Shown: positions 14,038 through 32,544 of the stretch, piece after piece | Position numbering within the stretch: position 1 is the stretch's first letter | Layout of the letters: each line of letters starts with the position of its first letter | Source of the DNA: Deltaproteobacteria bacterium | GTDB lineage: Bacteria; Myxococcota_A; Polyangia; JAAYKL01 | Assembly (NCBI GenBank): GCA_016935665.1 | Contig: JAFGQN010000181.1 | Coordinates: 1 to 60,280, forward strand | DNA length: 60,280 bases | Reading direction: 5' to 3' | Notes under the pieces: generated by a model | Told to the model about the DNA's origin: nothing | Database searches by the model: none | What the model saw: only the letters and a program-made list of their open reading frames with translations | Translations under genes and position numbers: made by a program

Positions 14038-15984
14038 TTATTGAGGCGCTGTCAGTTGGAACGGATAAGTAACGATAACAACGCCTCCACCTTTAGGCTG
14101 CGGGAATGTCCAACGCCGAACTGCCTGAGCAATACAGTTTTCAACTTTTGCATTCCCAAGTGTAGAGTTGGCGACTGCGGCCATTTGTACAGCGCCAGTA
14201 CCGGAAATGATAAACTTGATCGCTACACGACCTTCAAGGTCCGGTCGTTTCGCCAATTCGCTCTCATAGCAAAATTTAACTTCATTGATATGACGATGAA
14301 TAATTCTTCGAATCACTTCTTTTGAGAGTGATCCTTGAACCATTGCAGCACCGGAACGAATGCTAGGCGCGCCTCCTCTTCTACCGCCAAGACCACCAGC
14401 ACCGCGACCATAACCGGAACCGGAACCTCCACCGCCGCCGTGACCGATTGTGTTCAAGTTGCCAAGACCAATAGTACCTTCACCTGTACCACCACCTCCA
14501 CGACCGGTACCACTTAGTCCAAGACCACCATAACCGAAATTCTCGCCAACCTGGTTACCCATCAATGCGCCAAGCGCATTTTCAGGATCAACGCCCAGAG
14601 CCGTATCCTGACCAAAGGGTGACGTTGGTGCGTTCGCGGAAGAAAGATAACTCAAAATACCGGCGTTTTTAGCCATTTCTTTTGCTTGCGAACGAGCCAT
14701 GTGGGGATTTGGATTGTCTTTGGGCCCTTTTATCCCGTAATGATTATCAGTTTTACGGGAATCGCGTTTACCCATTTGTCCTTCTTCGCCTTTATGGCGT
14801 TTACCTTTACCGCCTTGCTGCTCATCCTTCTTTTCCTTTTTTAGCCAATCTGGAACTTCTTCCTGTTCCACTTCGGCAGCTGTAAGCATATATTTTACAA
14901 AACGGTTATTTTCTTCCAGCTGGTCCAAAGACAAACCTTCTGGACTCGGTGGAATAAAATAAATCAAGAAAAGAAAAAGTGCATGCAAAACGGCAGATAC
15001 GCCAGTGTACACTTGCTGTGTCCAATCAAATGTAAGTGGTGCCGCAAATTTTCTAGGGCTAGGTACCGCATTAACAAGGAATGTCCAACTGCCAAAGTCG
15101 ATTTTAATGCGTCCTTTGGCAGGCAATGCCATCGCATAGCCTCCCTGAACATCTGACGAAGCTGACATCTGACCTTGGGCGATTAGATCACCAATAGCAA
15201 TGCGAGACCCGTCTTCATACGTAACATCCCCCGAAGCACCAGCGAAAATATTAACCGTCGCGCCACCACCATATTGATTAACAACCAAAGGTACTTTTGT
15301 CTGCCCACCAATCGCCTCCGCAGGAATTGGAAAATTGCAAACAAAATCCTCACCTACTAAAAAATGTTCAATTTTTTTCGGATCATCATTCGTATAATGC
15401 TGAACTTGTAGAACCGAATTATTCCACATTACAACGACTTCGACAGCTTGTTTCGAAATGTCTTCGTATTTGTTTAAATCGACATAAGCCGATTGTCCAG
15501 GTGCAGTGGCTGGCGCGGCGTGGGGCATTGCTGCCCCCGTTGGTAACCCATGGCCAGTCATCGGCATTCCCCCCATCCCAGTCATCTGCATACCACCCAT
15601 CTGTGGTATCATCCCTGGAACAGCAGATGGCGTCTGGATATTTTGCGAAACTGCAATGCTGTGTGCACCAACCATATTCTGCGCTTGAATCGCAATTTGT
15701 AACTCAATACTGCCAAGCATAACACTATCGCCGCTGGAAAGTGCCGCTTTTTCAACACGTTGGCCATTTATTACAATACCAGAATCACTGCCCAAATCGA
15801 TGATTTGAGCTGAATCGGGGCCTGTAATTTCTACAACAGCGTGCATCTTCGAAATACTGTCATCGTCAATTTGCAGCTGACTTGAAGCAAGACGGCCAAT
15901 TTTAATAGCGTCTTCCGAAATGGCTTCCTCTTTTAAAAGGACACCGCCTTTTAAAACTCTGAAAATGATTGTCGCTCCACTCAT
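14038..15984 (-). CDS. FHA / TonB-like inner-membrane protein, GltG/PglI (NfsG) type
   Basis: The 648 residues have an N-terminal FHA domain (about 5-100; IGRLASSQL, SISKMHAVV, where the usual SRxH is SKMH), a Met/Gly/Pro linker, a second compact domain (about 170-310), one membrane helix near 324-346, an acidic then Lys-rich stretch, a long Gly-rich linker (about 485-545) and a C-terminal AgmX/PglI TonB-like domain (about 560-648, with Cys residues in EVKFCYESEL and VENCIAQAV). This is the architecture of M. xanthus GltG/PglI and NfsG: the FHA end is cytoplasmic and the TonB-like end reaches into the periplasm to touch TPR or outer-membrane partners. The ATG has an AGAGGA site. It is the last gene of the A-G block and is preceded by the small exported protein F. 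Confidence 0.85.
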   Translation of the reverse strand: MSGATIIFRVLKGGVLLKEEAISEDAIKIGRLASSQLQIDDDSISKMHAVVEITGPDSAQIIDLGSDSGIVINGQRVEKAALSSGDSVMLGSIELQIAIQAQNMVGAHSIAVSQNIQTPSAVPGMIPQMGGMQMTGMGGMPMTGHGLPTGAAMPHAAPATAPGQSAYVDLNKYEDISKQAVEVVVMWNNSVLQVQHYTNDDPKKIEHFLVGEDFVCNFPIPAEAIGGQTKVPLVVNQYGGGATVNIFAGASGDVTYEDGSRIAIGDLIAQGQMSASSDVQGGYAMALPAKGRIKIDFGSWTFLVNAVPSPRKFAAPLTFDWTQQVYTGVSAVLHALFLFLIYFIPPSPEGLSLDQLEENNRFVKYMLTAAEVEQEEVPDWLKKEKKDEQQGGKGKRHKGEEGQMGKRDSRKTDNHYGIKGPKDNPNPHMARSQAKEMAKNAGILSYLSSANAPTSPFGQDTALGVDPENALGALMGNQVGENFGYGGLGLSGTGRGGGGTGEGTIGLGNLNTIGHGGGGGSGSGYGRGAGGLGGRRGGAPSIRSGAAMVQGSLSKEVIRRIIHRHINEVKFCYESELAKRPDLEGRVAIKFIISGTGAVQMAAVANSTLGNAKVENCIAQAVRRWTFPQPKGGGVVIVTYPFQLTAPQ

Positions 15985-16016
15985 GATAATCCTCTGCTTA
16001 TTATCCGAAGATAATG

Positions 16017-16256
16017 TTAAATGTCCTCAACTGACTTGAGCATTTCGGGAACAAAATGCTGACGTACTTTGATAAGACTGCGCTGCTTACCCTGTTTACG
16101 GACAACAGTCATCTCTCCATCAGGACGAACCAAGTCGCCTTCAACCACGTCATCATCAAAAGAATATTCTGTAGTATCAGCAGTTTCCTGTGTAATTCCA
16201 ATTGAACTCGCTGTTACAGATAATAAAAATATGATTACTATACCGAAGCGTTTCAT
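16017..16256 (-). CDS. Small exported protein in the nfs/glt-like block (position F)
   Basis: The ATG at 16256 has an excellent AAGGAGG site 6 bases away; the longer reading from 16274 is unlikely. The 79-residue product has a signal peptide (MKRFGIVIIFLLSVTASS) followed by an acidic segment YSFDDDVVEGDLVRPDGE and a basic C-terminal half ending RQHFVPEMLKSVEDI. It should be periplasmic. Its position between the TPR lipoprotein and the FHA/TonB-like protein corresponds to nfsF/gltF in Myxococcus; homology is suspected from position and from the VEGDLxRPDG / SLIKVRxxFxPE pattern, not proven. Its YSFDDD segment resembles the acidic motif in proteins A and C of the block. Confidence 0.75.
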   Translation of the reverse strand: MKRFGIVIIFLLSVTASSIGITQETADTTEYSFDDDVVEGDLVRPDGEMTVVRKQGKQRSLIKVRQHFVPEMLKSVEDI

Positions 16257-16377
16257 TGGCGCCTCCTTTGTCAAACTATCTCCGAAAGCATTTTTGCTCC
16301 CGGTGACAGGATTTTAATTTTTCGACAATTGCCTCTTCCGTTTGTTCCCAAAAAATTCGAATAAAATTTACTGGACA

Positions 16378-16401
16378 ACTAAAAGAGGCATACAATCTAA
16401 A
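16378..16401. repeat. Short dispersed repeat, copy 1
   Basis: ACTAAAAGAGGCATACAATC plus TAAA here matches 23811-23834 at all but about four positions. This copy overlaps the stop codon of the TPR lipoprotein gene. The other copy lies upstream of the TPR protein C gene. It may be chance or a trace of a rearrangement. Confidence 0.3.
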
Positions 16402-17971
16402 GCTCAACGCCTTCTTTATCCTTGGACTCGTCTTTTTTGGCATCGTCAGCCGCTTTTTGTGCTTTTTCTTCAGCTTTCTTTGCCTCTTCTTCGGCTTTTG
16501 CTTCTTCTTTCTTTTGGGCTTCCTCAGCAGCAAGTTCTTTTTCTATCGCAGCCTCATCAACCTCTTCTGTCTTGGCCTGCTCGCCTTCAGCCTCTTTCTT
16601 GGCTAACTCCTCTGCCTGTTTTGCCAATTCAGCCATTTCTTTCTCGCGTTTTGCCTGCTCTTCCTGGAGCTTCTTCATTTCTTCCATAGCTTTTTCAGCT
16701 TCCTGAATTTGTACCACGGCTTTATTTGCGTTGTCGATTCGCTTTTGAGCTTTGTCGACCCATGATAGTTCTGGCCCCTTACCATCAGGATCTTTTTTGT
16801 GAAAATCAGTTGCGTGCTTAATGAACTTCTCAAAGACCGCCGCCGCTTTCTTGTATTCATCGACAGAACCCTGATTTTCGTAGTCCATCTCCAAAACACC
16901 CAAATTAAAAATATAATCCGTTCTGGATTTATCGATTTCAGATGCCTTTTTATATTCCGACCTTGCGAGTGCATAGTCGCCAAGTCCACGAGCCGCAACA
17001 CCCAGACCCATATGTGCATCATAACTCTTCGGCTGAAGCGCTACCGCTTTTTCGAATGCTCTTTTGGCATCTTCGTATCCACGGAAACTAAGGTTAATTG
17101 CGCCAAAACTCATGTACGCTTCAAAAAAGTTGGGATCTTTTTCAAACGCACGTTCGAAAGCCTTTAGTGCTTCAACCAATTCATTTTTTTGAAGAAGAAT
17201 CTGACCCAATACGAGATAGATAGGTGCGAACTCCGGATCTGTTTTCTTCGCTTGATCAACAACCAAAGTAGCTAAAGTCAAATAGGAGTCCTTTTTCAGA
17301 GATACCGCGATGGAGTAATACAAACGCGCCAACTGATACAGCGCGGGCATGTACTTAGCATCAATAGCAAGAGCTGTTCGCAAGCTCTTTTGCGCCTTCG
17401 CCCATGATTCTTTATCGCCTTCACTGGCGCGATTCCTTAAAATGGTGGCCGCGATAGTATAACAAGGCACTGCTTCCATGGTATTTCGCCCCAGCCCAAC
17501 ACATTCTTTCAGTTTTTGCTCAGACGCAGCTATATTACCAGCCTTAATGTCGAGATAAGCCAAATATGCAATTGATCTCTGTTTTGTTGGAACATGAGCC
17601 CCAAACTTGCTCACAGCTTTTTGAAAAGCCTCTCTCGCCTTATCTGTTTTACCGCACCGGTCGTAAACAACTCCGACGTTAAATGCAGCATCAGGCATAC
17701 CATGCTGGGACGCCACTTCTTCAAAATGCTCGGCCATGTCATCGCAGGTCTTGGCATCCCACCCAGCTTTATCCGCCTGTTTAAATTTGTCGGCCATTTT
17801 CTGAAAATCTTCTTTGGCCTGTTTGGACAAAACCGCTTTGCCCTCTGCATCAACTTTAGGCGTCGTACTTTTGCCGCCAGGACCGCTACCACCACATGCG
17901 ACGAGTGACAGAGAAGCTAAAACCATTATGGCCTTAAAGACGACTTTCATTGGTTTATTGTATGTTTTCAT
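16397..17971 (-). CDS. TPR lipoprotein with coiled-coil tail, GltE/AglT (NfsE) type
   Basis: A GAGGAGG site precedes ATG. The signal ends in lipobox LVAC (Cys26). Residues about 55-420 are tetratricopeptide repeats (for example YKKASEIDKSRTDYIFNLG, FERAFEKDPNFFEAYMSFG). From about 425 the chain becomes a long Lys/Glu/Ala-rich helix that should be a coiled coil or single alpha-helix, ending in VEL. In Myxococcus the corresponding gene aglT/gltE encodes a TPR lipoprotein between the large TPR protein and GltF/GltG. The protein is probably periplasmic, attached to a membrane, and a scaffold within the envelope machine. The order D-E-F-G is preserved here, which supports the assignment more than sequence alone. 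Confidence 0.8.
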   Translation of the reverse strand: MKTYNKPMKVVFKAIMVLASLSLVACGGSGPGGKSTTPKVDAEGKAVLSKQAKEDFQKMADKFKQADKAGWDAKTCDDMAEHFEEVASQHGMPDAAFNVGVVYDRCGKTDKAREAFQKAVSKFGAHVPTKQRSIAYLAYLDIKAGNIAASEQKLKECVGLGRNTMEAVPCYTIAATILRNRASEGDKESWAKAQKSLRTALAIDAKYMPALYQLARLYYSIAVSLKKDSYLTLATLVVDQAKKTDPEFAPIYLVLGQILLQKNELVEALKAFERAFEKDPNFFEAYMSFGAINLSFRGYEDAKRAFEKAVALQPKSYDAHMGLGVAARGLGDYALARSEYKKASEIDKSRTDYIFNLGVLEMDYENQGSVDEYKKAAAVFEKFIKHATDFHKKDPDGKGPELSWVDKAQKRIDNANKAVVQIQEAEKAMEEMKKLQEEQAKREKEMAELAKQAEELAKKEAEGEQAKTEEVDEAAIEKELAAEEAQKKEEAKAEEEAKKAEEKAQKAADDAKKDESKDKEGVEL

Positions 17972-17983
17972 TTGCAGCCTCCT

Positions 17984-20900
17984 CTATTCTTCCGCCCCGG
18001 ATTGACCTTCCGCAACAGCGTCAGCTGTTTGCGTCAGTTTTCTTTCTCGAATCTCAGCCTCAGTTTCCAGCTCAAGAACAGCGGCCGGTGCAGCGTAATA
18101 TTCAAATTCCGTCTTCGGAGTAACGCGAATTTCCTCAGAAATTGGGTATTTCAAAGGTTCCAACTGATTCAACTCTCTTTCGCATCTCAATGAGTTCTCA
18201 TTGAACCATCTAACCTTAGTGGAGATATTGAGACAATGCTCATACGCTTTTACTGCGCCAACACGATACGGTTCCGCCTTCTCGTCCATTGATCCGCGAT
18301 AAATGTCGATCAGCTCCTGGTCGCCTTCCATTGAAGGTGGCAATGGCGAATCGTAAATATCTTTCATAAAGGACAATTGCATATCAGCGGCACGTGCCGC
18401 AGCAGCCATTTCCCACTCTGGGACGTGAATTTTTGCAACATCCCCAAAGAGGATAGCTGCTTCGTTCAACGATTTCGTCTTTTCTTTGAACCAGGGACCA
18501 AGGTCGTGTTCTGCCCAATACTCAAATTGAATATTCAATTCTTCGCGTCGTTCCTCTTTTTTAACCATTTTAATCTGCTCCCGGATGGACTTGCCTTCTT
18601 CGTAATATCCCCATCGAGCAAGGCGCTTTCGCTGTTTCTTCCATTCATCCATTTCAGCAATCTGTTCGGCAGTGAATTGTTCTTTCTGCTTCTTGTCCCA
18701 CCAGGTTTGAACTTTCTTAGGCACACCTTTTTCCCCTTTGAATTCGGGGAATTTGACTTTTTCGAACTCGATGAATTTGCGTTCCGCGATATAGTATTTT
18801 GCTTTGGCAGCTGCGATAAGCATTTTAGCTTTACGCATGTTTTCAGTAACTTTTTCCTGATTCTTTTCGAAGGTGGAAAAAGCTTTATCGTACATATTCA
18901 CAGCTTTACCAAAATCAGGTCGCTTGTCGTTCCAGTAAGAATCACCCACCATCACCATGGCCTGAACTTGCTCATCATACAAAGCAGCTTTTTTATACTT
19001 TTTCAGATAATCATTGTACCATTTGCGTGTTTCTTCCCATTTTTCATCGTTAAAAAATACAAATCCTGCACTGAAAACGACACTTGCAGTCGCTTTAATA
19101 TCCTTACGCGCATATGATTTCTCATAATTCCGAACAGTATTCAAAGCCTCATCAATTTGGTTCAAACCGATATAGAACATGATGGCATTCCGCATCGCCC
19201 CTGGGGCCTCTTCTTCGCCTTCATATTTATTGGCAAATTTCACATAATACTCAGCGGCCTTTGAGAAGTTCTGAAGAGCGTGATAGTTTTGTCCAATGAA
19301 ATAAGCCGCTTTTTTGGAATGCTCACAATCGGGATACTTTTCGACCATATGCTTTCGAACATCAATCGCTTTCTGAACGAGACGTGCAGATTCAAGGTTA
19401 ATAGCAGTATTGAACAGAACCTCGCACATCCCACGATCGTCGTAAACTTCGTTGTAGTTTTTATAAATATCCAAATATATCTCGGCGGCTTCCATAAAAC
19501 GTTTTCGTTTAGTGAGCGATTCAGCCTGTTTACGCATTACTCCAACTTTCAAAGATTTAATCTGAGCAGCAAATTGTTCATCTTTCATCAGATTTGAACC
19601 AGGCGTTTTGCTGGTATCGATAAAAACATCAACGACCGCCGCAAGATCGTCATAACAAGAATCGATAGGCTCCTTAACCAGGGAACCTAAAGCATTCAGG
19701 GAGTCCAGGTAGAGATTTGCCGCGTATACGCCAATTTCTTCATCAGAATGATTGACGGCGATGTCCTTAAAAAGGACTGCCGCTTCCTGGAACATGTTGG
19801 CTTCATAATAAATACGCGCACGTCGATATTTAATATTTGCCAGGTCCGGAGCATCTTTGACTGTACAGATGTAACGCCCGTAAGACTTCAAAATGCCTTC
19901 TTCAAGAGGGCTTAATGCGATTGGCTCAAGAACCTGTCGATTTTCCTCTTTGCAAGTTTCAACACAGGCAGTCTTCTCTTCATTTTTCTTCTTTTTGCAT
20001 TGTTTGTTACATTTTTTTTCAGTGTCTTTGTCGTCAGCATTAATTTCGTGCTTTCTGTCTTTGTCGCTTTCAGCACGTTTCTGAACGTAAACTTTGTTAT
20101 AACAAAGAACGGCAGCATACGCCGCGTCGCCAGTGTACTGTCCGCTCGGATCCATTTCGACGACCTGATCGAACGCTGGACCGCATTTTTCCCAATCCTC
20201 CATGAACCAATACAGCTCAGCTTTATAATATGCAACTCTGTACCGTGTTGGCTTGGTTTTATCATCAAATCCTTCAACTTTCAGTTCATCGAGATTCGGA
20301 TAATTTTCCAGGATAGAGTTATAAAGATCAATACAGTGCTGCATCGTTTCGGGGCTCTTAGTTCCGGGCGATGACTCATTTCCTACGGATTCCAAGTGCC
20401 ATTGCGTTGCAATATCCCAAGCGATGGAAATGGACTCCTGATTACATTCGTCGATTTTTTTAGAATCGTGTTTTTCAGAACCAAATTTCTTGGAGAGTGA
20501 AATCTGTCGTGCGATCTCTTGAGTCTGTTTTTCTTTTGGAAGCGCGTTGATAGTCGCTCTGGTCACAGAAATTTGGTACTTGCAGAGATCGTCCCCATTA
20601 TTCTTGTTGTAATTTTCCACTTCCAATTTTTGTAATTGGTGAAAGACAATTATGGCATCCTGCCATTGGCCTTCATCGTAATACGAATAAGCTAGTTTAT
20701 CCAACATTTTTTGAGCAAGATCCCCACCAAGTTTCTGGAAGAGTGTCCACGCTTCTTTGGGATTTCCAATTTTCGAATATGGACTGACCAATTCCAATTT
20801 AGCTCTGCGTGCTACGGACTTAGCCTCTTTGCTATCCGGGTGACTATCCGAATACTGGATAACGCGGTTAAACTGATTGATAGCCTGTTTATGGTCCTGC

Positions 20901-21835
20901 ATATTTATCAGGCACCAAGCTTGATAATACATTGCGATGACGTAGTTCGGATTGTTTTTCTCGCCCCATTCAACTACCTGTTCATACGCTTTCATCGCTT
21001 GTTCCACGTTTTTTTCTTCGTGGAAATAATATTCGCCGTAAGCCATCCAGGCGTGAGGGATATATTTGGAATTGGGATAATTTCGAATCAATTGCTGATA
21101 AAATTCACGTGCTCGAGCCCTATAGGCAGATTTAGTAGCGGCGTCTTCCACTTCCACGGCCATCTGATCAATTTCGTAGGCAATAGCAAACAGAATTTGA
21201 TCATATGCGTCGTAATCCTGAAATTTGTCACGAATCTGAACATATGCCTTGATAGCAGCCTCACGAACGGCCGTTGATTTTTTATCGAGTGCGATTTGTT
21301 GTGCTCTCAGCTTTTTAGCAAGTTGTGCATTACCGTTATTTTTGGCTTCAAAAATTTTCTCATCAAGACTGCGCGCCATAAAGTTTATACTCGTATAAAG
21401 TTCCTTATAAGCATCCGCCAGTCGTTTGAGAATCTCAGGCTTGTCGGGGTCAGAGTCAGGCGTTCCCCTGGCGAGGCGCGTAATGAGTTGAATCTCTTGC
21501 TTGAGAATGTCGATTGCGCGGGCTTTGCGTTTAGAGGTGAAAGACGATTCAAGAATGTTTTTCACCATATCCCTATCAAGACTGGGACCAATCGGCGCCT
21601 TTTTCTTTTTTCTCTCTTTTATGGAACTCGTACCAATGTCAGCACGCGCGCCCTTTTTTCCAAGCTTAATCGACCCTTCACAACTTTTAATCTTATTCTC
21701 AACTGCCTGCGGAACACATTGCTTTTCCCCTGGCAGTGTAGCGGAGGAAGCCGCTTTGGCACCTGTACTTGCAATCAGGAGTGCACCAACTGTGACGCCA
21801 GCAGCGATTCGTGAAATAAAAAAATTGCTATTCAT
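17984..21835 (-). CDS. Large periplasmic TPR protein, GltD/AgmU (NfsD) type
   Basis: The 1283-residue product has a signal peptide ending near GAKA (residue 28), a basic segment (KERKKKKAPIG), then TPR-type repeats over nearly all of the chain. The motif ILKQEIQLITRLARGTPDSD followed by ILKRLADAYKELY resembles the start of the AgmU/GltD TPR region as I recall it. Near residues 608-632 is an unusual insertion with paired CX3C motifs (CNKQC and CVETC) separated by a Lys/Glu stretch, suggesting a disulfide-closed helical hairpin. The C-terminus is Glu-rich. Length is close to M. xanthus AgmU (about 1200 residues). The start has a GGGAGG site. It sits 6 bases after gene C and 12 bases before gene E, so they form one operon. 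Confidence 0.8.
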   Translation of the reverse strand: MNSNFFISRIAAGVTVGALLIASTGAKAASSATLPGEKQCVPQAVENKIKSCEGSIKLGKKGARADIGTSSIKERKKKKAPIGPSLDRDMVKNILESSFTSKRKARAIDILKQEIQLITRLARGTPDSDPDKPEILKRLADAYKELYTSINFMARSLDEKIFEAKNNGNAQLAKKLRAQQIALDKKSTAVREAAIKAYVQIRDKFQDYDAYDQILFAIAYEIDQMAVEVEDAATKSAYRARAREFYQQLIRNYPNSKYIPHAWMAYGEYYFHEEKNVEQAMKAYEQVVEWGEKNNPNYVIAMYYQAWCLINMQDHKQAINQFNRVIQYSDSHPDSKEAKSVARRAKLELVSPYSKIGNPKEAWTLFQKLGGDLAQKMLDKLAYSYYDEGQWQDAIIVFHQLQKLEVENYNKNNGDDLCKYQISVTRATINALPKEKQTQEIARQISLSKKFGSEKHDSKKIDECNQESISIAWDIATQWHLESVGNESSPGTKSPETMQHCIDLYNSILENYPNLDELKVEGFDDKTKPTRYRVAYYKAELYWFMEDWEKCGPAFDQVVEMDPSGQYTGDAAYAAVLCYNKVYVQKRAESDKDRKHEINADDKDTEKKCNKQCKKKKNEEKTACVETCKEENRQVLEPIALSPLEEGILKSYGRYICTVKDAPDLANIKYRRARIYYEANMFQEAAVLFKDIAVNHSDEEIGVYAANLYLDSLNALGSLVKEPIDSCYDDLAAVVDVFIDTSKTPGSNLMKDEQFAAQIKSLKVGVMRKQAESLTKRKRFMEAAEIYLDIYKNYNEVYDDRGMCEVLFNTAINLESARLVQKAIDVRKHMVEKYPDCEHSKKAAYFIGQNYHALQNFSKAAEYYVKFANKYEGEEEAPGAMRNAIMFYIGLNQIDEALNTVRNYEKSYARKDIKATASVVFSAGFVFFNDEKWEETRKWYNDYLKKYKKAALYDEQVQAMVMVGDSYWNDKRPDFGKAVNMYDKAFSTFEKNQEKVTENMRKAKMLIAAAKAKYYIAERKFIEFEKVKFPEFKGEKGVPKKVQTWWDKKQKEQFTAEQIAEMDEWKKQRKRLARWGYYEEGKSIREQIKMVKKEERREELNIQFEYWAEHDLGPWFKEKTKSLNEAAILFGDVAKIHVPEWEMAAAARAADMQLSFMKDIYDSPLPPSMEGDQELIDIYRGSMDEKAEPYRVGAVKAYEHCLNISTKVRWFNENSLRCERELNQLEPLKYPISEEIRVTPKTEFEYYAAPAAVLELETEAEIRERKLTQTADAVAEGQSGAEE

Positions 21836-21841
21836 ATTGAT

Positions 21842-23545
21842 TTACCTCCCACAATGCCTTTCCACCGGCTGACGATAGTAACCCAATTCATCGCGCCAAT
21901 ATTCACCTGTGAAAGGCCAAATAACATGTTCTTCGTCACTTGAAATTTCAGCATTCTTGGCATGGATACGAGCAATCGCCTCACCAGCCGCTGCCTCCTG
22001 CTCCAATTCACCTCGCAATGCTTTTAAAATTTCAATCTCGACCCTTGTGGTCTGATTGAGGAAGTCCTGGATCTCTGTCAAGAGACGCTCATATCGAGAG
22101 CGCGCCAGATTGCCGGTGTTGTCGATCGCAACAGATTTCGCCGTTTCAATATCCTGCATAATGCGCTGCCCAGCCGTGGAATTAACAAACTGAGCGGGCA
22201 TTTTTTTAAGCCTGTCGGCTTCTTTTTCGAGCAGGCTAACATACTCAAGATTTCTTAATAGAGTGCGGTCATCAAGGGCGCCTTTAACAACATATACGAC
22301 TTCGCGCGGTAGGCCGAGAATTGATTTCTGCTCAACGTCGTCCAATGCTCCATCATCGATTTCTTTCCTTAATTTTCTCAAAAACTGGAAGAATTGAGGG
22401 TTATCCTGAAACTTGGAAAGGTTCTTCTGCAACTGACCTTTGACTGGTTCAAAATCGCTTCTGAATTGATCTACAACCATTTTGGCGTCATCATAAAGAC
22501 ATTGATCGAAAAAAATAACGGCCTTCAAAATAACCGCTTCGGGATAGAACGATTCTTTAAAGTAGGGAGACTGCAAAGTATGAATATTCCCCAACGCACG
22601 ACTGTAATTGTCAACCTGGAAATATGCCCAGGACTCTTCAAACTGTGCATCCAAATAGTATTCTGAAGACTGCGGAATTTTGTTCCAGGCTGCGATGGCC
22701 GAGTCCCAGTGTTTCGTGGAATAATAAATTCGCGCCAGCGACAACCACGCGAGATTGAGGAATCTCTCCTCATCATCGTCAAGGAACAATTTGCCATCAT
22801 ATCTTTCAACAATTTTCAGAAACGCTTTTGATGCCGGCATCGCCTTGCGTTGCCGAATATAAGTAATGCCCGTAAAAAATTCGGCATTTACCTTCAACTC
22901 AGAATCTGCGCTCAATCCCATGAAAAAACTTCTCGCTTTTCCAAATTCGCCCATTTGATACCAATACCTACCCATCAAATACATCAACTCGTTATAAAGG
23001 TCTTTCGTTTGGGGGCGTTTAAACTCCTGCAACGCTTGAACTGAATCGCCATATCGCCCGACCAATCCGATAATACCGGCCGGCTCAGGAAGCTCGCGGG
23101 AAAGTTGCGCCAGCCATTGCAATGTAGAATGAAAATAAATGTGACCTGTTGACATCAGAGCGATCTCTTCAAACACGCCAAGAGCTGCCTGATAAAATTT
23201 AAGATGGTAAAAACACTTTCCGAGAAAAAACTGCGCTTTTTGAACGTTCGCGGGTTCGTCCCCGGTTTCGCCCTGCACGATGCGCTGAAGTTGAACCGCA
23301 GCTTGCGCGTATCGCTCCTGTTGATAGAATCTTAAAGCATTGGCCAGTGCTTCACTGGGGGGACCGCTGGGTTTTGGAGGAGGCGCAGTTACCGCCGCGG
23401 AAGGCGATGCCGCTTTACTCCCTCCTCCTGCCGCCCCTGCACCATCATCGGTGAAATCCATATCGTCCTGCGCATTAACGATACTGGAGACGGAAAAAGT
23501 CACCATGAGCGCGATTATCCCACTTAAAAACCCGTTTTTTACCAT
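21842..23545 (-). CDS. Exported TPR protein, GltC/NfsC-like position
   Basis: The 567 residues begin with a signal peptide (cleavage after NAQ, residue 26) and at once the acidic motif DDMDFTDD, then an Ala/Gly/Pro linker (about 38-65) and TPR-like helices (about 68-420: LRFYQQERYAQAAVQLQRIV, KAQFFLGKCFYHLKFYQAALGVFEEI). The last third (about 430-545) is a long helical region. In the nfs and glt loci of Myxococcus a periplasmic TPR protein (NfsC/GltC) precedes the large TPR protein, and that is the arrangement here. CGAGG lies before the ATG. It is the first gene of the C-G part of the block after the 4-kb interruption. Confidence 0.75.
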   Translation of the reverse strand: MVKNGFLSGIIALMVTFSVSSIVNAQDDMDFTDDGAGAAGGGSKAASPSAAVTAPPPKPSGPPSEALANALRFYQQERYAQAAVQLQRIVQGETGDEPANVQKAQFFLGKCFYHLKFYQAALGVFEEIALMSTGHIYFHSTLQWLAQLSRELPEPAGIIGLVGRYGDSVQALQEFKRPQTKDLYNELMYLMGRYWYQMGEFGKARSFFMGLSADSELKVNAEFFTGITYIRQRKAMPASKAFLKIVERYDGKLFLDDDEERFLNLAWLSLARIYYSTKHWDSAIAAWNKIPQSSEYYLDAQFEESWAYFQVDNYSRALGNIHTLQSPYFKESFYPEAVILKAVIFFDQCLYDDAKMVVDQFRSDFEPVKGQLQKNLSKFQDNPQFFQFLRKLRKEIDDGALDDVEQKSILGLPREVVYVVKGALDDRTLLRNLEYVSLLEKEADRLKKMPAQFVNSTAGQRIMQDIETAKSVAIDNTGNLARSRYERLLTEIQDFLNQTTRVEIEILKALRGELEQEAAAGEAIARIHAKNAEISSDEEHVIWPFTGEYWRDELGYYRQPVERHCGR

Positions 23546-23911
23546 CTTTTACCTCGTTTCAATGAAAACGTAATTGCACCTGACAAAAAACAAATGAAAA
23601 AAAGTTGTTCCGTTCAAGTTAAAAAAGTTAAAAAAAACCAACAAAATCGCTAAGTTAGAGTAGGCATACGCGCGTATAGTATTTGTAAAACCGCCAAAAG
23701 TCAAGGATTTTGTAGACCCGTTTCAGTGACACTGCAACGTTCTCTCGACAATGAAATTGTCTATTGATTTAAAGTATTTAGGCGAGTATCACAATTTATA
23801 TTCTCTCTTGACTAAAAGAGCCATACAGTTTAAAAATCAATCCGTTAAATAATTACGTTCCTTAATAAGGAACAATACCTCAAAAGCAACCATAGGAAAG
23901 AGGACATCTGC
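23546..23911. promoter_or_regulatory. Divergent AT-rich intergenic region
   Basis: These 366 bases lie between gene C (minus) and a lipoprotein gene (plus). The part next to gene C is very AT-rich with A-tracts. It should hold the promoter of the C-G operon and of the divergent lipoprotein. I could not pick convincing -35/-10 pairs. The second copy of the short dispersed repeat is at 23811-23834. Confidence 0.45.
23811..23834. repeat. Short dispersed repeat, copy 2
   Basis: ACTAAAAGAGCCATACAGTT plus TAAA matches the sequence at 16378-16401 with about four differences. Here the preceding CTCTTG makes a small hairpin with AAGAG. Confidence 0.3.
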
Positions 23912-24571
23912 ATGGGTAAGTCTATAACTTTCATTATTGTAACAGTGGCTTTTTTGGCAACCGGATGCCCGGAAAAAATGGTGGGTGCACCTTGTGTTTC
24001 CGAAACGGACAATAAAAAATTCAGCACGGAACTTCTCTCAGAAAGCGATGTTGCAACCGCTATGACCTGGTCAATCGAGACGGGGTCTGTTCAATGCGCG
24101 ACAAATCTTTGTCTCACCCAAACCAAGGTGAATAAGGATGCAGAAGCAAAAATTAAAGAATGTCAGGACGATCCGAGTGAGCAAACCTGCGGTGCTGATA
24201 TCTCTAATGGGGATGTCAAGGGAGAACCTGTTATCCTGAAATTCAGTTTTTGCTCTTGCAGATGTAAAGATGGTGATGACAATAGCTATGCTGATAATCC
24301 CGATAAATTCGGAGATCTTTGCGAATGCCCACCGTCCGCAAAATGTGTTAAAGTTTTGGATAAAATCGGTGGTACTGGGGACAGCAAAGATGACAACGAG
24401 AGTGGTGGCAGTGCCATTTCTGAAAAACTGTTCGGATCCTATTGTGTTCCCGCCTGTATAGACACACCATGCTATAACCAAAATTCATCCGATGAGAAAG
24501 GTGAAGTATGCACACCTTCTACGAATAGTGAAGAGCCATGGCTATGGTCCTGTGAAAAACTGACCCGATAA
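23912..24571 (+). CDS. Cys-rich lipoprotein of unknown function
   Basis: The signal ends in lipobox LATGC (Cys19), and an AGAGGA site precedes ATG. The mature part (about 200 residues) holds 16 further Cys residues, many closely spaced (SFCSCRCKDG, LCECPPSAKC, CVPACIDTPC), and several acidic, Asp/Ser/Gly-rich spacers. The even number and spacing suggest a disulfide-knit exported domain, as in many Myxococcota lipoproteins. I recognise no family. It lies in the 4-kb stretch that separates barrels A/B from TPR proteins C-G, on the opposite strand, so it need not belong to that machine. Confidence 0.75.
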   Translation: MGKSITFIIVTVAFLATGCPEKMVGAPCVSETDNKKFSTELLSESDVATAMTWSIETGSVQCATNLCLTQTKVNKDAEAKIKECQDDPSEQTCGADISNGDVKGEPVILKFSFCSCRCKDGDDNSYADNPDKFGDLCECPPSAKCVKVLDKIGGTGDSKDDNESGGSAISEKLFGSYCVPACIDTPCYNQNSSDEKGEVCTPSTNSEEPWLWSCEKLTR

Positions 24572-24724
24572 AAAAGTAACTTTCACATTTGTCCCTAATA
24601 TTTCCTTTATCGGCATATCGCAAAAATCACATCAGATTGTCATATCACCCCATTTGCCAGCTGCAGTATATTTTTTATTGGGGGTATAATTTCATGGTTC
24701 AGTGTCCTGTGTACTGGTGGTGAA

Positions 24725-25081
24725 ATGAATGATACAAAAATAAAAATTGGTAATCGTGGCGAGCAATTTGTTTCTGACTGGCTAATCAAAAAAGGTTACA
24801 AAGTTTTGGAGCGAAACATTAGGGATAAGATAGGCGAAATTGACATTATCGCATTGCATCCCAACAAACAGACCATTTCCTTTATAGAGGTTAGAACCAG
24901 GGCAAACACTCAATTTGGTCATCCACTAGAGACAATCTCTCCTCACAAGCAACGTAAAATAAGAAATGCGGCCAATTTATATCTCTGTAAAAATGGAATA
25001 ACCAACATCGCGATGCAATTTGATGTTGCTTCCATCGTTTGGAGCACTAATGAATTTTTATATATAGAAAATGCATTTTAG
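24725..25081 (+). CDS. yraN: YraN/UPF0102 family nuclease-fold protein
   Basis: The 118-residue protein shows the YraN pattern: GNRGEQFVSDWLIKKGYKVL at the N-terminus, then GEIDIIAL and FIEVRTRAN, the Asp/Glu-x-Lys-like residues of a PD-(D/E)XK nuclease-type fold (the usual Lys of VKTR is Arg here), then HPLETISPHKQRKI. Length is typical. Its exact role is not settled; members are found beside replication or ribosome genes. A transposase fragment on the opposite strand follows directly. Confidence 0.9.
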   Translation: MNDTKIKIGNRGEQFVSDWLIKKGYKVLERNIRDKIGEIDIIALHPNKQTISFIEVRTRANTQFGHPLETISPHKQRKIRNAANLYLCKNGITNIAMQFDVASIVWSTNEFLYIENAF

Positions 25082-25244
25082 CGCAGAAAAATTGGAACGA
25101 TACAAGATTCCGTTGATTGAATAACCGACAAGTTTTATCTATCCTTCCCGACTTTAAAATAAACAGCATACATGGATATAGCAACAGTATCGTCAAATTT
25201 TTTTCTCGTTTCAGTATCAAGACGACGTTAGATATCTTTGATTT

Positions 25245-25587
25245 TCACCTATTCTCCTCGTACAGCTTCTGCACCGACCAATGCGGAAACGCCCGGCATT
25301 TCCCGGCTATTACTACCATCTCCTTTTCCCCGATTCGCCTCGGCCAACCGTCGTCGACGCGCTTCCTCGGCAGCAGTTGGTCAAATCGCTTCTCCCAATA
25401 CACCTTCAGCCACGTCGCAATTGTCGAAACTGCCATCTTCTTTGGCCTGCTGCCCGCAAACACAGATTCCTTTTCGGCCATCTGTCTGCGATACTCATTG
25501 CGGTTGCGCCCCGTTTCCATCAATCAGCATCGGGCTGATGATTTTGTATCGCTGAAGCGATTTCTGTTTTGGGGTTTCGTCATTCAT
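25245..25587 (-). pseudogene. Frameshifted, truncated DDE transposase N-terminus
   Basis: An ATG at 25587 with a strong AGGAGG site starts MNDETPKQKSLQRYKIISPM and stops at 25495. Shifting frame, the reading continues to 25245 through NEYRRQMAEKE, VSTIATWLKVYWEKRFDQL and DDGWPRRIGEKE. This order (RYxxISP, a helix-turn-helix with STIxxWLKxY, then a Pro/Arg linker) is the N-terminus of Mu/IS481-like DDE transposases. The catalytic domain is missing; only 160 bases remain before yraN. It is a dead insertion-sequence remnant. Confidence 0.6.
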
Positions 25588-27068
25588 GAGCTTTTCCTCC
25601 TGTGAAAGAGTTATGAATCGCCGCGACACATTTATAGTTTCGGCCACAGAAGCTTAAACCCTGCATGGACACCACGCCAGCAACGCTCTGGTCTCATCGA
25701 TGGAAAACGATACGAGGACTGCTCTTATCCTATTCTGATCAGCTGATTACTGATAACTGTGACGCTGTCCGGTGTCGTCCGTTTTGAGGAAACAACCAGA
25801 ATTTGCCGTCAAATCCGATTCAACGCACACGTCAGCGCCTATGGGACGAACACCCAAACAAAAACTTGTACCATGATTTGACCATGAATACGCAACGCTG
25901 TCATTTGAGCCCATATCCGTATGGTGGGCCTCAGGCGAATGCAGGAGTATAACCGTGGACCATCTCAAGATTACTCGCAGTTCCTTCCTATCGGAATACC
26001 GACGTGAAATCATATCGGACCCACAACTCCCAGTGTGCCGCAAGAAACCTGCAGCGAATCACTGCCAGCCGCTTGCGAAGCTGCCATGATGTCACTCGGC
26101 TCTGCACCGTAAAAAATTGCTCAGCCTCATACGATGTCCCGTTGCAATCCGCGTACTTACAGTATTCCCGCCATAAAAGCAGCGCTTTCAAAATCGTTTC
26201 CACTGTATGCAAATGATACGGAATCAGCTAAAACGGCAGCATTGAAAACGCGCTGCCAATATGCGCGCCACGATACTGAAACCGCGCCACCGGAACCATT
26301 CCCTCCCGCGGTGGCCACAGCTCGGCACCCCTGCGACATTAATGCGTCAGCGCCCGATACCCGCAACTTCCCACACAAAATGGACGATATGGTCCAATCA
26401 TCGACATCCAATCGATCTTTTCTGAAAAAAAGCTTCTTCGTACTCCGCAACGGAGCGGAAGCTGTTAATGTAGACAAGCTGAATAAACGACATCCAGTAT
26501 CTGGGAGCATCGATGTTGCAGTACCGCCTCCCATTTCTATTATTTCACCATCGGTCAGTCTACCGTTGTACCAATCGCTACAAGCCTCCTCAAATCAGCT
26601 TTATATTCCGGTTAAAACATTTTTCCAATTTTCCACCAAAACACAAATCCACATGTGGAAATCAACAGTTACACTAAACTCTCGAATAATTTCAGTCTGT
26701 CGGCACATCCCATGGCATACCAGCTGCGCTGAAAACATCCGAAATGACCGTCGGACATCCGTATCATGACAAAAAATAGATTTCATGCAACAAAAGTAAA
26801 ACCACTGCGATTCTTTTTTGTACAACGCTGTAAACAACATTGATCGATGTCTAACCACCAAGTATAAACGGGAGCCATGCTTGTGGCATGGTACTTTTCT
26901 CCTATCGATACTTTCGATTTTAGCAGGCAATAAGGTACCATTTTTATTTCCCAGTGACTCCCTTGGAAGTCCAACTATTTCTATCGCTAAACGCCGCGCC
27001 CCATAACCTTTGCACGCAGTATTTGATTATTGTTACGTCAGTCGAAATCAGGGGTCCTGAATTTAGTG
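25588..27068. other. About 1.5 kb without an intact gene, probably decayed DNA
   Basis: Both strands show open stretches of 60-210 codons, but none has a ribosome binding site with a plausible N-terminus, and the translations are low in regular structure with many rare residues. On the minus strand fragments in different frames (for example DWYNGRLTDGEIIEMGGG near 26530-26578) read like pieces of a once-coding exported protein. I interpret it as a degraded gene region next to the dead transposase. I cannot name what it was. Confidence 0.5.
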
Positions 27069-27256
27069 CAAAGATGTTTGCAATTGGCAGAAAAGGGGCA
27101 ACTCTTGCCTATCGTATTCTCAAATTTGACGCTGACTACGTCGATCTGAGAGAACAGGCGTATGAACAAAAGTTTCAACAAATGCGAATCGAAGGGATTA
27201 AAAACTCCGTGTTATTTATGGATTATGAACTTTTCCTCTTGAAAGATACAGGATGA
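27069..27256 (+). pseudogene. Possible C-terminal remnant of a transposase
   Basis: The frame reads AYRILKFDADYVDLREQAYE, then QKFQQMRIEGIKNSVLFMDY and a short end. The pattern YVDxxxxxYExxxxxxR is like the tail of several insertion-sequence transposases. No intact N-terminal part precedes it. The call is weak. Confidence 0.25.
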
Positions 27257-27606
27257 AGTTTCGGGTCAGATAGCTTATTACATGCCAACTGGGGCCTTAT
27301 TAATGGCCAATGATTATTGAATCGCCATGGCTCTGCCAACAATAGGTACCCAAAATCCTACTGCGCTTTAAAAAAGGCATAAGGAATTTTCAATATTATG
27401 TATCTAGTGAACAAAATCGTATTTCAATTGAGTCGGTACACTTGTCACGAAACTCACGATGACGACTACAATAGACTGCGAAAACAATATACGAGCATCA
27501 AATCCACTAAACCCAAAATGGTTAGGATTGTTAGCAGTAACTACAGTACTCTAATACTGAAAACATTCTGAAAAAAAAGATGGAATAGGGAATTGGATGG
27601 CAGCGA
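27257..27606. other. Intergenic region with no recognisable feature
   Basis: The 350 bases downstream of barrel protein B are AT-rich and hold no convincing ORF, RNA or hairpin. They probably continue the decayed interval. Confidence 0.4.
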
Positions 27607-28554
27607 TTAATCAGTTACACGAGGTGTTCTTGGAAAGTTAAATACGACACCTACAATCACGCTTTGATTGAAATTCCAGGTTCTATCAGCATCATCGATT
27701 TTTCCATCCGGGTAATCGCCTTCACCCTCTGGGGAATACTCTACCCAGTCAAGATTCCCGTCACCGTTTTCATCGTCAACAATCCACTGATTGCCATGCT
27801 GGCCAGCCTCATCGGTACCAGCCGCATTCCACTTAAATGGAGCAAGTCTGTATTCCAAATTCAGGCCAATCCAACTATTGAAATATGCTGTAAAACCAAT
27901 ACCAAATGAAACAGTGGGTTTGAGAACAACCTCTCGAGTAACGCTACCGCCACCGGACTGAAAATCTCCAAGGTCATTACATCCCCTGCCCTCGTTGGCA
28001 GACGAATCGCAATGTTGTCGCTCTTCGAAAACAACAACACCACCGCCCACAAATACATATCCGTCCACCGCGACAAACAGTTTCTCAAACGCAGCCATCT
28101 TCCCTCTAAACGGAACCAGAGAAACCTGACCAATTAAGAGGCTTTTTAACCGCGCGACCTGTTCTTCAAAGTGATCTGCTCCGGTATAACTTGGCCAGTT
28201 ACTTGAAGAAGGAATGGACGTGGACATCATTTTATTGCTGGAATCGGAAATATGATTGGTCAAATGGGTTGGTGCATTCAGTGTATAGAAACCAACAACG
28301 CCAATACCAAGCCAATCGGTTACGTTAAATTCAGCTTTGGCGCCAAGCATGAAATTATGCATATAGTCATTCAATAGTGTGTAGCCAAACTGAGGTCCAA
28401 AGGAAAATCTCAATTTCCTGTATTGTATTTTCTTTTCGACAGCGGGAGCACCGGCCAAGGGTCCTTCCAATAAGATTTCCTGAGCAGAAACACTTTTCGC
28501 TGCACCACATAACGTAACAAGAGCGAAGGTCAACGCAAGGGCATAACGGGCCAT
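27607..28554 (-). CDS. Outer-membrane beta-barrel protein, NfsB/GltB-like position
   Basis: The ATG at 28554 is chosen because GGGAG lies 8 bases upstream and it gives a clean signal peptide (MARYALALTFALVTLCGAAK, cleavage after SAQ). Starts at 28587 and 28605 are in frame. The mature protein has many short amphipathic strands (LRFSFGPQFGYTLLND, FMLGAKAEFNVTDWLGIGVV, GFTAYFNSWIGLNLEYRLAP) and ends NQSVIVGVVFNFP, a typical barrel closing strand. Family: the Myxococcota-type outer-membrane barrel associated with the glt/nfs machines. A loop region (about residues 265-290) is rich in Asp/Gly. It lies directly downstream of the paralogous barrel A. Confidence 0.75.
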   Translation of the reverse strand: MARYALALTFALVTLCGAAKSVSAQEILLEGPLAGAPAVEKKIQYRKLRFSFGPQFGYTLLNDYMHNFMLGAKAEFNVTDWLGIGVVGFYTLNAPTHLTNHISDSSNKMMSTSIPSSSNWPSYTGADHFEEQVARLKSLLIGQVSLVPFRGKMAAFEKLFVAVDGYVFVGGGVVVFEERQHCDSSANEGRGCNDLGDFQSGGGSVTREVVLKPTVSFGIGFTAYFNSWIGLNLEYRLAPFKWNAAGTDEAGQHGNQWIVDDENGDGNLDWVEYSPEGEGDYPDGKIDDADRTWNFNQSVIVGVVFNFPRTPRVTD

Positions 28555-28611
28555 CGTTCCAACTCCCATTCGTGTATATTTGTACATTTGCTTCCCTGCT
28601 TTCATTATCGA

Positions 28612-29670
28612 TTATTTTGGTAGTTTGAAGTCAAAAGAAGGTGGCAGGAAGACGCTGATGCCAGCCTGCAACATCACATTGTTTGTCAGCTTAACTTCAT
28701 CCGAAATCCAATTGCTTTCGTCAGCGCGACGAGCCGGATCGGGAAGAGTTTTCAATTCCTCAAGTTTCTCAGGGAAGATATAATCCCTAAGTTCCACAAA
28801 AACAGCGAGGAATCGTGTAAGGTACATTCTTCCGCCTATACCAACGTTAAACGCGATTTTTATCTCCCACTCGAAGGTACGATAATCCACGTCTATCACA
28901 GAATAGGGCTTGGTAAAAATGAATCCTCCGCCACCAACAAACCATACATCCCAATGCAAAATCCAATTGTTTAGTAAAGCAAACTTTCCATACATTGGCA
29001 CATACGTCATGTTCAATTGACCGCCCCAAAAATATTCGTTAATTGGCACAGTTTGATGCGTTGCTCTTTTGATGGAGTAGTTCACATCGGTTTCCTTGTT
29101 GAGGAACCGATACCAATTGAAACTGACACCAACAGACAGAACCTCGGTAATGTAGTAAGACAAACCGAGATTCACCGATTGGTGTTGCACAAACGGGTCG
29201 TTCAGCGACACACCCAGCGATGGCTGAAAGTCAAATCTCCCTTTTCTTAAAGCATACACCTGTTGGATTGCCCAAATCGGATGTCGCTCCAGAACAGTAA
29301 GATTGCCATCACTAACTTTTTCACCTTCTTTGGTGGTTGGTTTTCCAACCCCAACATCGGCGCCTCCATCAAGCGAAAGGTCGTTGAGATCCAACAAACC
29401 GTCACCTGCTGCACCAACATCGCCAGCTGCTGCGTCACCAACAGCATCTCCGCCCATGTCCATGGGTGCATCTTCTCCTGTGCTTACATCACCTTCGTCG
29501 AAGCTCATATCATCTCCCGCCCCAGCAGCGGCGTCGCCTCCGACATTGGCCCCTGCACCGGAATCAACTTCTTCTTCGCCGAAGGTCATGTCGTCCTGTG
29601 CAAAAGCAGCAACAGGGAATAGGAGTATTGTGATTAGTAGCAACGACAGCTCAATGCGTTTTCTTTTCAT
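28612..29670 (-). CDS. Outer-membrane beta-barrel protein with acidic N-terminus, NfsA/GltA-like position
   Basis: The ATG at 29670 has GAGAGGA in front. The signal peptide is cleaved after AFAQ; then comes a low-complexity acidic/Gly/Ala region (about residues 25-105) that contains the motif DDMTFGEE and again DDMSFDEG. From about residue 125 the chain is barrel-like (FDFQPSLGVSLNDPF, VNLGLSYYITEVLSVGVSFN, GIGGRMYLTRFLAVFVELRD) and ends NVMLQAGISVFLPPSFDF. It resembles barrel B in general plan. It is the first gene of the A-B pair and would be the outer-membrane part of the machine formed with C-G. Confidence 0.75.
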   Translation of the reverse strand: MKRKRIELSLLLITILLFPVAAFAQDDMTFGEEEVDSGAGANVGGDAAAGAGDDMSFDEGDVSTGEDAPMDMGGDAVGDAAAGDVGAAGDGLLDLNDLSLDGGADVGVGKPTTKEGEKVSDGNLTVLERHPIWAIQQVYALRKGRFDFQPSLGVSLNDPFVQHQSVNLGLSYYITEVLSVGVSFNWYRFLNKETDVNYSIKRATHQTVPINEYFWGGQLNMTYVPMYGKFALLNNWILHWDVWFVGGGGFIFTKPYSVIDVDYRTFEWEIKIAFNVGIGGRMYLTRFLAVFVELRDYIFPEKLEELKTLPDPARRADESNWISDEVKLTNNVMLQAGISVFLPPSFDFKLPK

Positions 29671-29915
29671 CGCATAATCCTCTCGCGAACGATTGGTAAA
29701 CAAGTGGCATGCCTGTAACTATTGAAAATAATTGAACTTTTGTTTCCATCTGCCATTTGGACAATGACTATATCACAAGCGGCAAAAAGTAATCAATAAA
29801 TTATTTACAGTTTCTTCAAAATTTCAAATTTCAATGTGTTTGTACCGAATCGTTAAAATATTATGTAAATTCGGCAGGCCAAACCCTAATTTACGTGTTT
29901 AAATTCAAAGGCTAT

Positions 29916-31250
29916 TTAAGCCTCGTCCTCCTGAACAAAAAGTGCATCTACAAAATCTTCAACGTCAAACTGGCGCAAACTGTCCTTCGCTTCACCAATT
30001 CCAATATAGCGTACCGGAATTTTATATTCGTGACAGATGCCAATAATTACGCCACCTTTCGCTGTACCATCTAATTTGGTTAGTGCTATTCCGCTAATAT
30101 CAAGTGCATCGCCGAACTCTTTTACCTGTTGCAAAGCGTTCTGACCATTGGTTGCATCGAGAACCAACAGTATTTCGTGCGGTGCCGTATCATGTGCCTT
30201 TCCAAGCACCCGATTAATTTTTTTGAGTTCCTCCATTAGAGGCGCTTGAGTGTGCAGTCGTCCAGCGGTATCTGCAATAACAATATCCGCGCCTGTTTCT
30301 TTGGCTGTCTTTACAGCATCAAAAACAACAGAAGACGGATCTGCTCCCTCCTTAGCCGGTTTTACAACTTCACTATTGGTACGCCGTCCCCAGATTTCCA
30401 GTTGATTCACCGCAGCGGCGCGAAATGTATCGGCCGCAGCAAGTACAATCTTGTATCCATCCTGCGAAAACTGTGATGCAAGCTTACCAATGGTGGTCGT
30501 TTTGCCAGCGCCATTAACGCCTACCACCATAATAACAAATGGTTTATCAGAAGAGAAATCGTATGGCGAGGCTTTAATACTCAGTGCGTGCCGAATTTCA
30601 TCTTTTAACAAGCCCCAAACTGCTTTGGGATCTTTTAATTCTTCTTTATCAAGGGCTTCACGCACCAGATTCAATAACCATTCGGTGGTACCTGCGCCAA
30701 CATCCGACGTAATCAATGCCTCTTCCAACTTGTCCAACAGATCTGCATCGATTTCCTTTGTGCCTTTAAACAGAGCACTGATTTTCGAGATTAAACCGCC
30801 CCGTGTTTTCGATAATCCCTGTCTGAGTTTTTGTAACTTCCGTTCGCGGCGTGCCTTCTTGAGGTTTAGAACAGCTGTCTGCTCGGCGGTTTCGTCCAAC
30901 CGAACGCCCTCAGGGGCTATTTCGACTATTTCTTCTTCCTCTGACGTTTCCTCTTGTTCGTATATTTCTTCTTCGGCAGCGTCTGGTCCTTCGAAGGCCG
31001 ATTCTTCAGCCGTACATTTTTCTGGTAGTATAGACTCTACGTCGCGTTCATCCTCCGGACCTTTGGTTTCGTCAACTACCAATTCCTTCTCGGGGGTTTT
31101 CTTTTCCAACGCCTCCCTGTCCGAATCCGACCTACCTTTTTCGAACGACTTTGTTTCAGAAGCAGCGGATTTTGAACCTGATTTTTTGGCTATAAACACT
31201 ATTAGCAGAATAACCAAAATAACAGCGACAATCCCAACTACATAAGTCAT
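29916..31250 (-). CDS. ftsY: Signal recognition particle receptor FtsY
   Basis: FtsY docks the SRP-ribosome complex at the membrane. The 444-residue protein begins with a membrane helix (TYVVGIVAVILVILLIVFIA), followed by an acidic/charged A domain (about 25-145) and the NG domain: GVNGAGKTTTIGKL near 243 (P-loop), DTAGR near 331 and TKLDGTAKGG near 396. The start has GGAGGGG 5 bases upstream. The N-terminal membrane helix is a variant common in this phylum. Confidence 0.95.
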   Translation of the reverse strand: MTYVVGIVAVILVILLIVFIAKKSGSKSAASETKSFEKGRSDSDREALEKKTPEKELVVDETKGPEDERDVESILPEKCTAEESAFEGPDAAEEEIYEQEETSEEEEIVEIAPEGVRLDETAEQTAVLNLKKARRERKLQKLRQGLSKTRGGLISKISALFKGTKEIDADLLDKLEEALITSDVGAGTTEWLLNLVREALDKEELKDPKAVWGLLKDEIRHALSIKASPYDFSSDKPFVIMVVGVNGAGKTTTIGKLASQFSQDGYKIVLAAADTFRAAAVNQLEIWGRRTNSEVVKPAKEGADPSSVVFDAVKTAKETGADIVIADTAGRLHTQAPLMEELKKINRVLGKAHDTAPHEILLVLDATNGQNALQQVKEFGDALDISGIALTKLDGTAKGGVIIGICHEYKIPVRYIGIGEAKDSLRQFDVEDFVDALFVQEDEA

Positions 31251-31577
31251 TTACACCCCTCCAGACTGCTTTCTCTTTTTTTGGAAGTTATAAAAAAATA
31301 CGAGAAATCAATTCACGATTTGCGTCGTATTAAAACTCATTAAATACTTACATGTCAAGCTCTGGTGAAAACAGGCTTAAACATTTAAAATATTTATCAT
31401 AAGTCATAGTATTTTTCTAAAGTTTTGAGTAGTGATATAAAAAAAGCCAAAAAAAATAAAATTTAAGAAAAAATAGAATTTTGCCAATCTGCTGTAAATT
31501 ACTGTGCATACAAATTCTGATTTTGCGTCTGAACCTGAGGGCTGTTTTAATTCAATTCTTGCATAGAGGGCAAACCA
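31251..31577. promoter_or_regulatory. AT-rich divergent region between ftsY and the HEAT-repeat gene
   Basis: These 327 bases are strongly AT-rich and separate divergent genes, so both promoters should be here. No coding frame or stable hairpin is evident. Confidence 0.45.
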
Positions 31578-32486: not shown

Positions 32487-32544
32487 TGCATAAGAAAAAG
32501 CGACTATTGTTTTTAAAGACATTCACTTCAAAAGGGAGACCATT

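Follow-up and report, generated by a model that had tools for sequence, protein, structure and literature searches.

Seven genes (A–G) on a contig of a Deltaproteobacteria bacterium (Myxococcota_A, Polyangia) recall the Glt and Nfs machines of Myxococcus xanthus, and no motor gene lies with them. The locus thus raises the question of which kind of machine is encoded and which motor could move it. The DNA analyzed, here called the window, is 60,280 nucleotides long and makes up an entire contig of a draft genome (8.16 Mb, 249 contigs, 95% complete). It was compared with 80 named GltC loci with flanks of up to 10 kb, the comparison loci being from Myxococcota MAGs, without Myxococcaceae or M. 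xanthus sequence. The motor distribution was followed in 14 genomes of the bacterial family, with a TolQ tree of 58 rows and an ExbD alignment of 96 rows; all genomes compared are drafts.

Components of the Complex

Seven minus-strand ORFs had been predicted between 14038 and 29670, and each is found at the position claimed; their domains, signal peptides and the tight spacing of C–G are confirmed by profile search and ORF check. Signal sequences start A–F, the gaps from C to G measure 6, 12, 140, and 32 bp, and B and A are separated by 6 bp.

Protein A (28612–29670, minus strand, 352 aa) is a putative exported eight-stranded outer-membrane barrel of the GltA/GltB/NfsA/NfsB type, and B (27607–28605, minus, 332 aa) is a second barrel and its paralogue, the profile of each retrieving the other. 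With TIGR04565 (OMP_myx_plus; cut-off 60 bits), A scores 89.4 bits and B, slightly below the cut-off, 54.5 bits. The AF2 model of A has eight strands, in which pLDDT is mostly 80–93; disorder in the N-terminal third lowers the overall value to 61. The nearest known fold is that of the OmpA membrane domain (1qjp, TM 0.82 by target).

Protein C (21842–23545, minus, 567 aa) is an exported TPR protein of the GltC family, matching NF033756 (gliding_GltC) with 278.8 bits (cut-off 450) over residues 66–565, nearly the whole mature protein, against 45 bits for the best generic TPR model. The very large exported TPR protein D (17984–21835, minus, 1283 aa) matches generic TPR models and no GltD model; its size, signal peptide and position fit GltD, it sits between C and E in relatives too, and it is identified by size and position as a putative GltD-like protein. 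For the TPR lipoprotein E (16397–17971, minus, 524 aa; lipobox LVAC-GG), the best match is NF033758 (gliding_GltE; 74.7 bits, cut-off 225, residues 34–444), followed by a model with 58.6 bits. The small exported protein F (16017–16256, minus, 79 aa) is of the GltF/CglF type, CglF being the same as GltF (PMC4488436), and scores 61.4 bits with NF033764 (cut-off 90); its homologues in relatives conserve the core DDVVxGDLVRPDG and FxPEMLKS. Protein G (14038–15984, minus, 648 aa) belongs to the GltG family (NF033760; 396.3 bits, cut-off 650, residues 6–646) and consists of an FHA domain (54.7 bits), one transmembrane (TM) helix, a linker and a TonB-like AgmX/PglI tail (NF033768; 112 bits). In the helix, VSAVLHALFLFLIY, the S-x3-H portion of the motif by which TolA and TonB bind their motors (PMC12204202) is retained.

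The prediction of an Nfs/Glt-type trans-envelope machine is thus backed by the profile matches and by the fold of barrel A, and C and E match GltC and GltE better than generic TPR families. A and B prove to be paralogous OmpA-like barrels, as published for GltA and GltB, which bind GltC and each other (PMC4488436), rather than members of an unrelated family. In NCBIfam, Glt models are the top hits for C, E, F, and G, all four of which stay under the curated same-gene (equivalog) cut-offs (279/450, 75/225, 61/90, and 396/650 bits, respectively), and A–G are assigned on sequence to the Glt/Nfs superfamily, at superfamily level and to neither Glt nor Nfs. A chance grouping of generic TPR proteins (C, D, and E) with ordinary small porins (A and B) is hardly credible and already largely refuted: TPR repeats and small barrels are common and D has generic matches only, but C matches GltC along its length and far above the next model, most of those among the 80 named loci that are long enough to show it retain the order C-D-E-F-G, and B-A-ftsY stays near C–G across several families.

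Such machines are common in the phylum and the present one is not exceptional, the GltF model being matched in 256 of 379 phylum genomes, with scores of at most 105 bits throughout this sample.

Gene Order and Inversion

The original prediction described a conserved A–G order, that of nfsA–G, split by about 4 kb. The split stands: the gap between A/B and C–G measures 4.06 kb and holds two conserved plus-strand genes, for a Cys-rich lipoprotein and a UPF0102/YraN protein, together with ~2.5 kb without genes. The conserved order does not stand, since relatives have A/B divergent from C–G. In a genome of the same genus (G002), B, A, and ftsY (minus) are followed by genes for a HEAT protein and a 209-aa protein (u209; both plus) and by yraN and the lipoprotein gene (minus), after which C-D-E-F-G-hisS-orf594 are found on the plus strand; the remainder of the window is collinear with G002. 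The block B-A-ftsY-HEAT-u209 is oppositely oriented, with A/B divergent from C–G, in six related genomes from several families (L056/L063, L042, L171, L172, L173, and L198), and its arrangement relative to yraN and the lipoprotein gene or to C is the same in G004, in G012 (on a contig without C–G) and in L171, L172, and L173.

From the opposite orientation in relatives it follows that the order in the window is the product of an inversion of B-A-ftsY-HEAT-u209 (27607–33174), with B, A, and ftsY on the minus strand and the genes for the HEAT protein and the 209-aa membrane protein on the plus strand. By this comparison, the window carries an inversion of ~5.6 kb (27.6–33.2 kb), seen in this genome only among those examined, and the likeness to the nfsA–G order is therefore secondary. 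The conserved feature, as judged from gene arrangement, is the neighborhood and not the order, the lined-up A–G order being a local accident.

The left breakpoint region corresponds to a gene-poor spacer (25082–27606) that has no match in the compared loci and contains a weak transposase-like trace (HTH_32, E 1.7e-4), which may be transposase debris at one breakpoint. This debris and the fragmentation of the draft into 249 contigs would fit an assembly error, with an artefactual gene order in the window; however, long inverted repeats that could cause a false inversion were not found around the block and G002 is collinear with the window outside it, making such an error improbable.

Neighboring Genes

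The Cys-rich lipoprotein gene (23912–24571, plus) is divergent from C and conserved in relatives, with 58% identity in L056 and further copies in L042, L057, L058, L173, L174, and L198, belonging to several families. Its product had no match in Pfam or NCBIfam and is a possible accessory part of the machine. Downstream, both in the window and in relatives from the family, G is directly followed by hisS, a position in which an NfsH-like gene is not found, and the last 4 bp of hisS are shared with a gene for a 594-aa exported protein (10895–12679, minus). The 594-aa protein had no match in Pfam or NCBIfam; it has repeated aromatic PFYW-like strands and is kept in the family downstream of G-hisS. 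No Rfam match was found in the window.

Elsewhere in this genome (G000), a second GltF homologue of 52% identity is encoded on contig C10 (L240, 9667–9903). It was rejected as a second cluster, being a lone gene whose neighbors encode an ECF sigma factor and unrelated exported proteins. Contig C104 (L029, 8532–10085) encodes a 517-aa GltG-like protein without FHA (171 bits, with an S-x3-H helix), distant from any motor or Glt cluster.

Motor Genes and Their Distribution

Profile searches found 14 MotA/TolQ and 13 ExbD matches in the genome, none of either on the contig of the window, and TolQ/ExbD-type genes near GltC were likewise absent from all 80 named loci (up to 10 kb of flank). The lack of motor genes in the window had been noted and a motor encoded elsewhere suggested as possible, and the genome-wide search found two unlinked AglRQS-like motors, with one TolQ and two ExbD, on contigs C160 and C242 only, each within another Glt-like cluster. 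The C160 cluster combines C-, D-, E-, and G-like proteins with the motor, which is the published core-complex layout, and the C242 cluster combines an FHA-G protein, a small barrel, TPR lipoproteins and the motor. Single-ExbD Tol/Exb motors are present as well, e.g., on C16, C95, C136, C162, and C215. An ExbD gene on C24 (L062, 9856–10389) was rejected as a third motor, being an orphan without TolQ that resembles the Asn-bearing C160 subunit.

The TolQ tree separates four types, M1, C242-type, C160-type and M2, with M2 as sister to C160-type. C160-type TolQ occurs in 12 of the 14 family genomes and C242-type in seven, the C242-type motor being rejected as an obligatory partner since it is missing in half of the family. 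Outside this family, the M1 type occurs in the majority of families of the class (15 searched genomes); within it, G006 alone has this type (1 of 14). The family seems to have lost a motor type found in related families, an absence seen in several genomes, all of them drafts. In three genomes of the class, M1 and M2 motors lie side by side in divergent orientation (L200, L205, and L207), and some M1 loci have tandem TolQ genes.

Both motors of G006 fall in clades other than C160-type. G006 has the closest homologue of the window G (55% identity), which scores 424 bits with the GltG model, and this gene adjoins an M1-type TolQ-ExbD-ExbD motor in convergent orientation, with one 337-aa ORF between them. 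The idea that this gene was simply relocated from the D-E-F cluster was softened, given weak G-like matches (34–38% identity) ~3 kb past F on C1.

In the ExbD alignment, the position of the ion-binding Asp of TolR is Asn in 24 of 96 proteins. All 24 (encoded in L031, L032, L191–L196, L212–L222, L226, L228, L229, L233, and L234) are the first ExbD of C160-type, C242-type or related motors in other families, the second ExbD having Asp; in M1- and M2-type pairs, Asp occupies this position in each subunit. The near-universal motor of the family thus has Asn for the ion-binding Asp in one ExbD subunit. A motor swap is conceivable on these data, albeit rather doubtful: the family would have lost the Asp/Asp AglRQS-like motor of the class, kept A–G and come to borrow the motor of the second Glt-like cluster, a motor of a different clade in which the Asn-bearing ExbD would make an obligate hetero-pair with one active site.

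Proposed Working of the Complex

AglRQS powers Glt as well as Nfs in M. xanthus, where GltG or NfsG is coupled to the motor through binding by AglR and the complex is thereby moved along the surface (PMC3169522; PMC3858216). By analogy, A–G probably form a Glt/Nfs-type trans-envelope cargo complex moved by a proton-driven motor encoded elsewhere, for which the C160 motor with one TolQ and two ExbD is the likeliest candidate. G would be the inner-membrane component: its FHA domain would face the cytoplasm, its TolA/TonB-like helix would couple to the TolQ/ExbD-type ion motor, and its flexible arm, with a TonB-like end, would extend into the periplasm. The periplasm would be spanned by D, E, and F, with C as their connection to the barrel pair A/B in the outer membrane, such that the pull would be transmitted from G via D, E, F, and C to A and B. 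The motor would move the complex along the cell surface, carrying adhesions or polymers.

The C160 motor may be shared with A–G, as AglRQS is common to Glt and Nfs in M. xanthus, and TolA and TonB are able to bind each other's motors via the motif of which G carries the S-x3-H part (PMC12204202). The C160 assignment is drawn from co-occurrence. Against sharing, G-, C-, D-, and E-like partners are already encoded in the cluster of the C160 motor. The motor beside G in G006 also speaks against this model, being of the M1 clade and convergent with G, not in one operon with it.

The complex could instead be driven by a general single-ExbD Tol/Exb motor and act in envelope maintenance or as an import transducer. 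Motors of this kind are encoded in the genome, G has the S-x3-H helix in common with TolA and TonB, and two-ExbD motors are not linked to the GltC loci; the published Glt/Nfs complexes, however, use AglRQS, and the closest G homologue, that of G006, adjoins a two-ExbD motor, which renders this alternative unlikely.

Gliding or Surface Coat

Bacteria with AglRQS and GltA–G have been regarded, as a rule of thumb, as potential gliders (PMC3169522). The genome encodes MglA, matching solved MglA structures over the whole length, and MglB, as well as a 658-aa protein on C197 with a zinc finger-TM-tail layout, which scores 107.6 bits with the GltJ model, far under the cut-off of 450. With MglA, MglB, and this weak GltJ-like protein, gliding or directed surface transport by A–G is plausible.

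In comparison with the Glt system of M. xanthus (GltA–K with AglRQS; PMC3169522; PMC4488436), the locus has a homologue of every protein from GltA to GltG except GltD, for which it has a putative GltD-like protein. The shared features further include paralogous OmpA-like barrels, the FHA-TM-TonB architecture of GltG, unlinked motor genes and MglA/MglB in the genome. It differs in that the window cluster has no GltH, GltI or GltK gene and the only GltJ-like gene, a weak one, lies outside it, in that A/B are ancestrally divergent from C–G and beside ftsY, and in that the widespread Asp/Asp-type motor of the class is absent from this genome. The Nfs system (NfsA–H; PMC3858216) has the same seven part types A–G nearby in a cluster without motor, but here hisS takes the place of an NfsH-like gene behind G and the single-strand order is a product of inversion. 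Types C, D, E, and G are also common to the clusters of Gammaproteobacteria and Geobacter that unite a GltC-D-E-G core complex with AglRQS (PMC3169522); unlike these, the cluster in the window also includes A, B, and F and has no motor genes.

An Nfs-like apparatus for surface or spore coat, and not a gliding machine, would agree with the neighboring A–G genes, the nfs genes forming one A–H cluster without GltI/J/K (PMC3169522; PMC3858216), and with the lack of a full-strength GltJ match in the genome. Nevertheless, the single-strand A–G cluster is secondary and MglA and MglB are present, and this reading is given a low probability compared with the broader one of a Glt/Nfs-type cargo complex.

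Implications

The machine itself is ordinary, and the interesting part is the question of its motor. Among uncultured relatives of the myxobacteria, the cargo half of the gliding/spore-coat machine is widely distributed, while the presumed motor is present in some and missing from others; whether Glt-like complexes share motors can therefore be tested. AglQ and AglS both carry Asp, and whether they form homo- or heterodimers is described as unknown (PMC9389320). That two motor clades conserve Asn in their first ExbD is relevant to this question.
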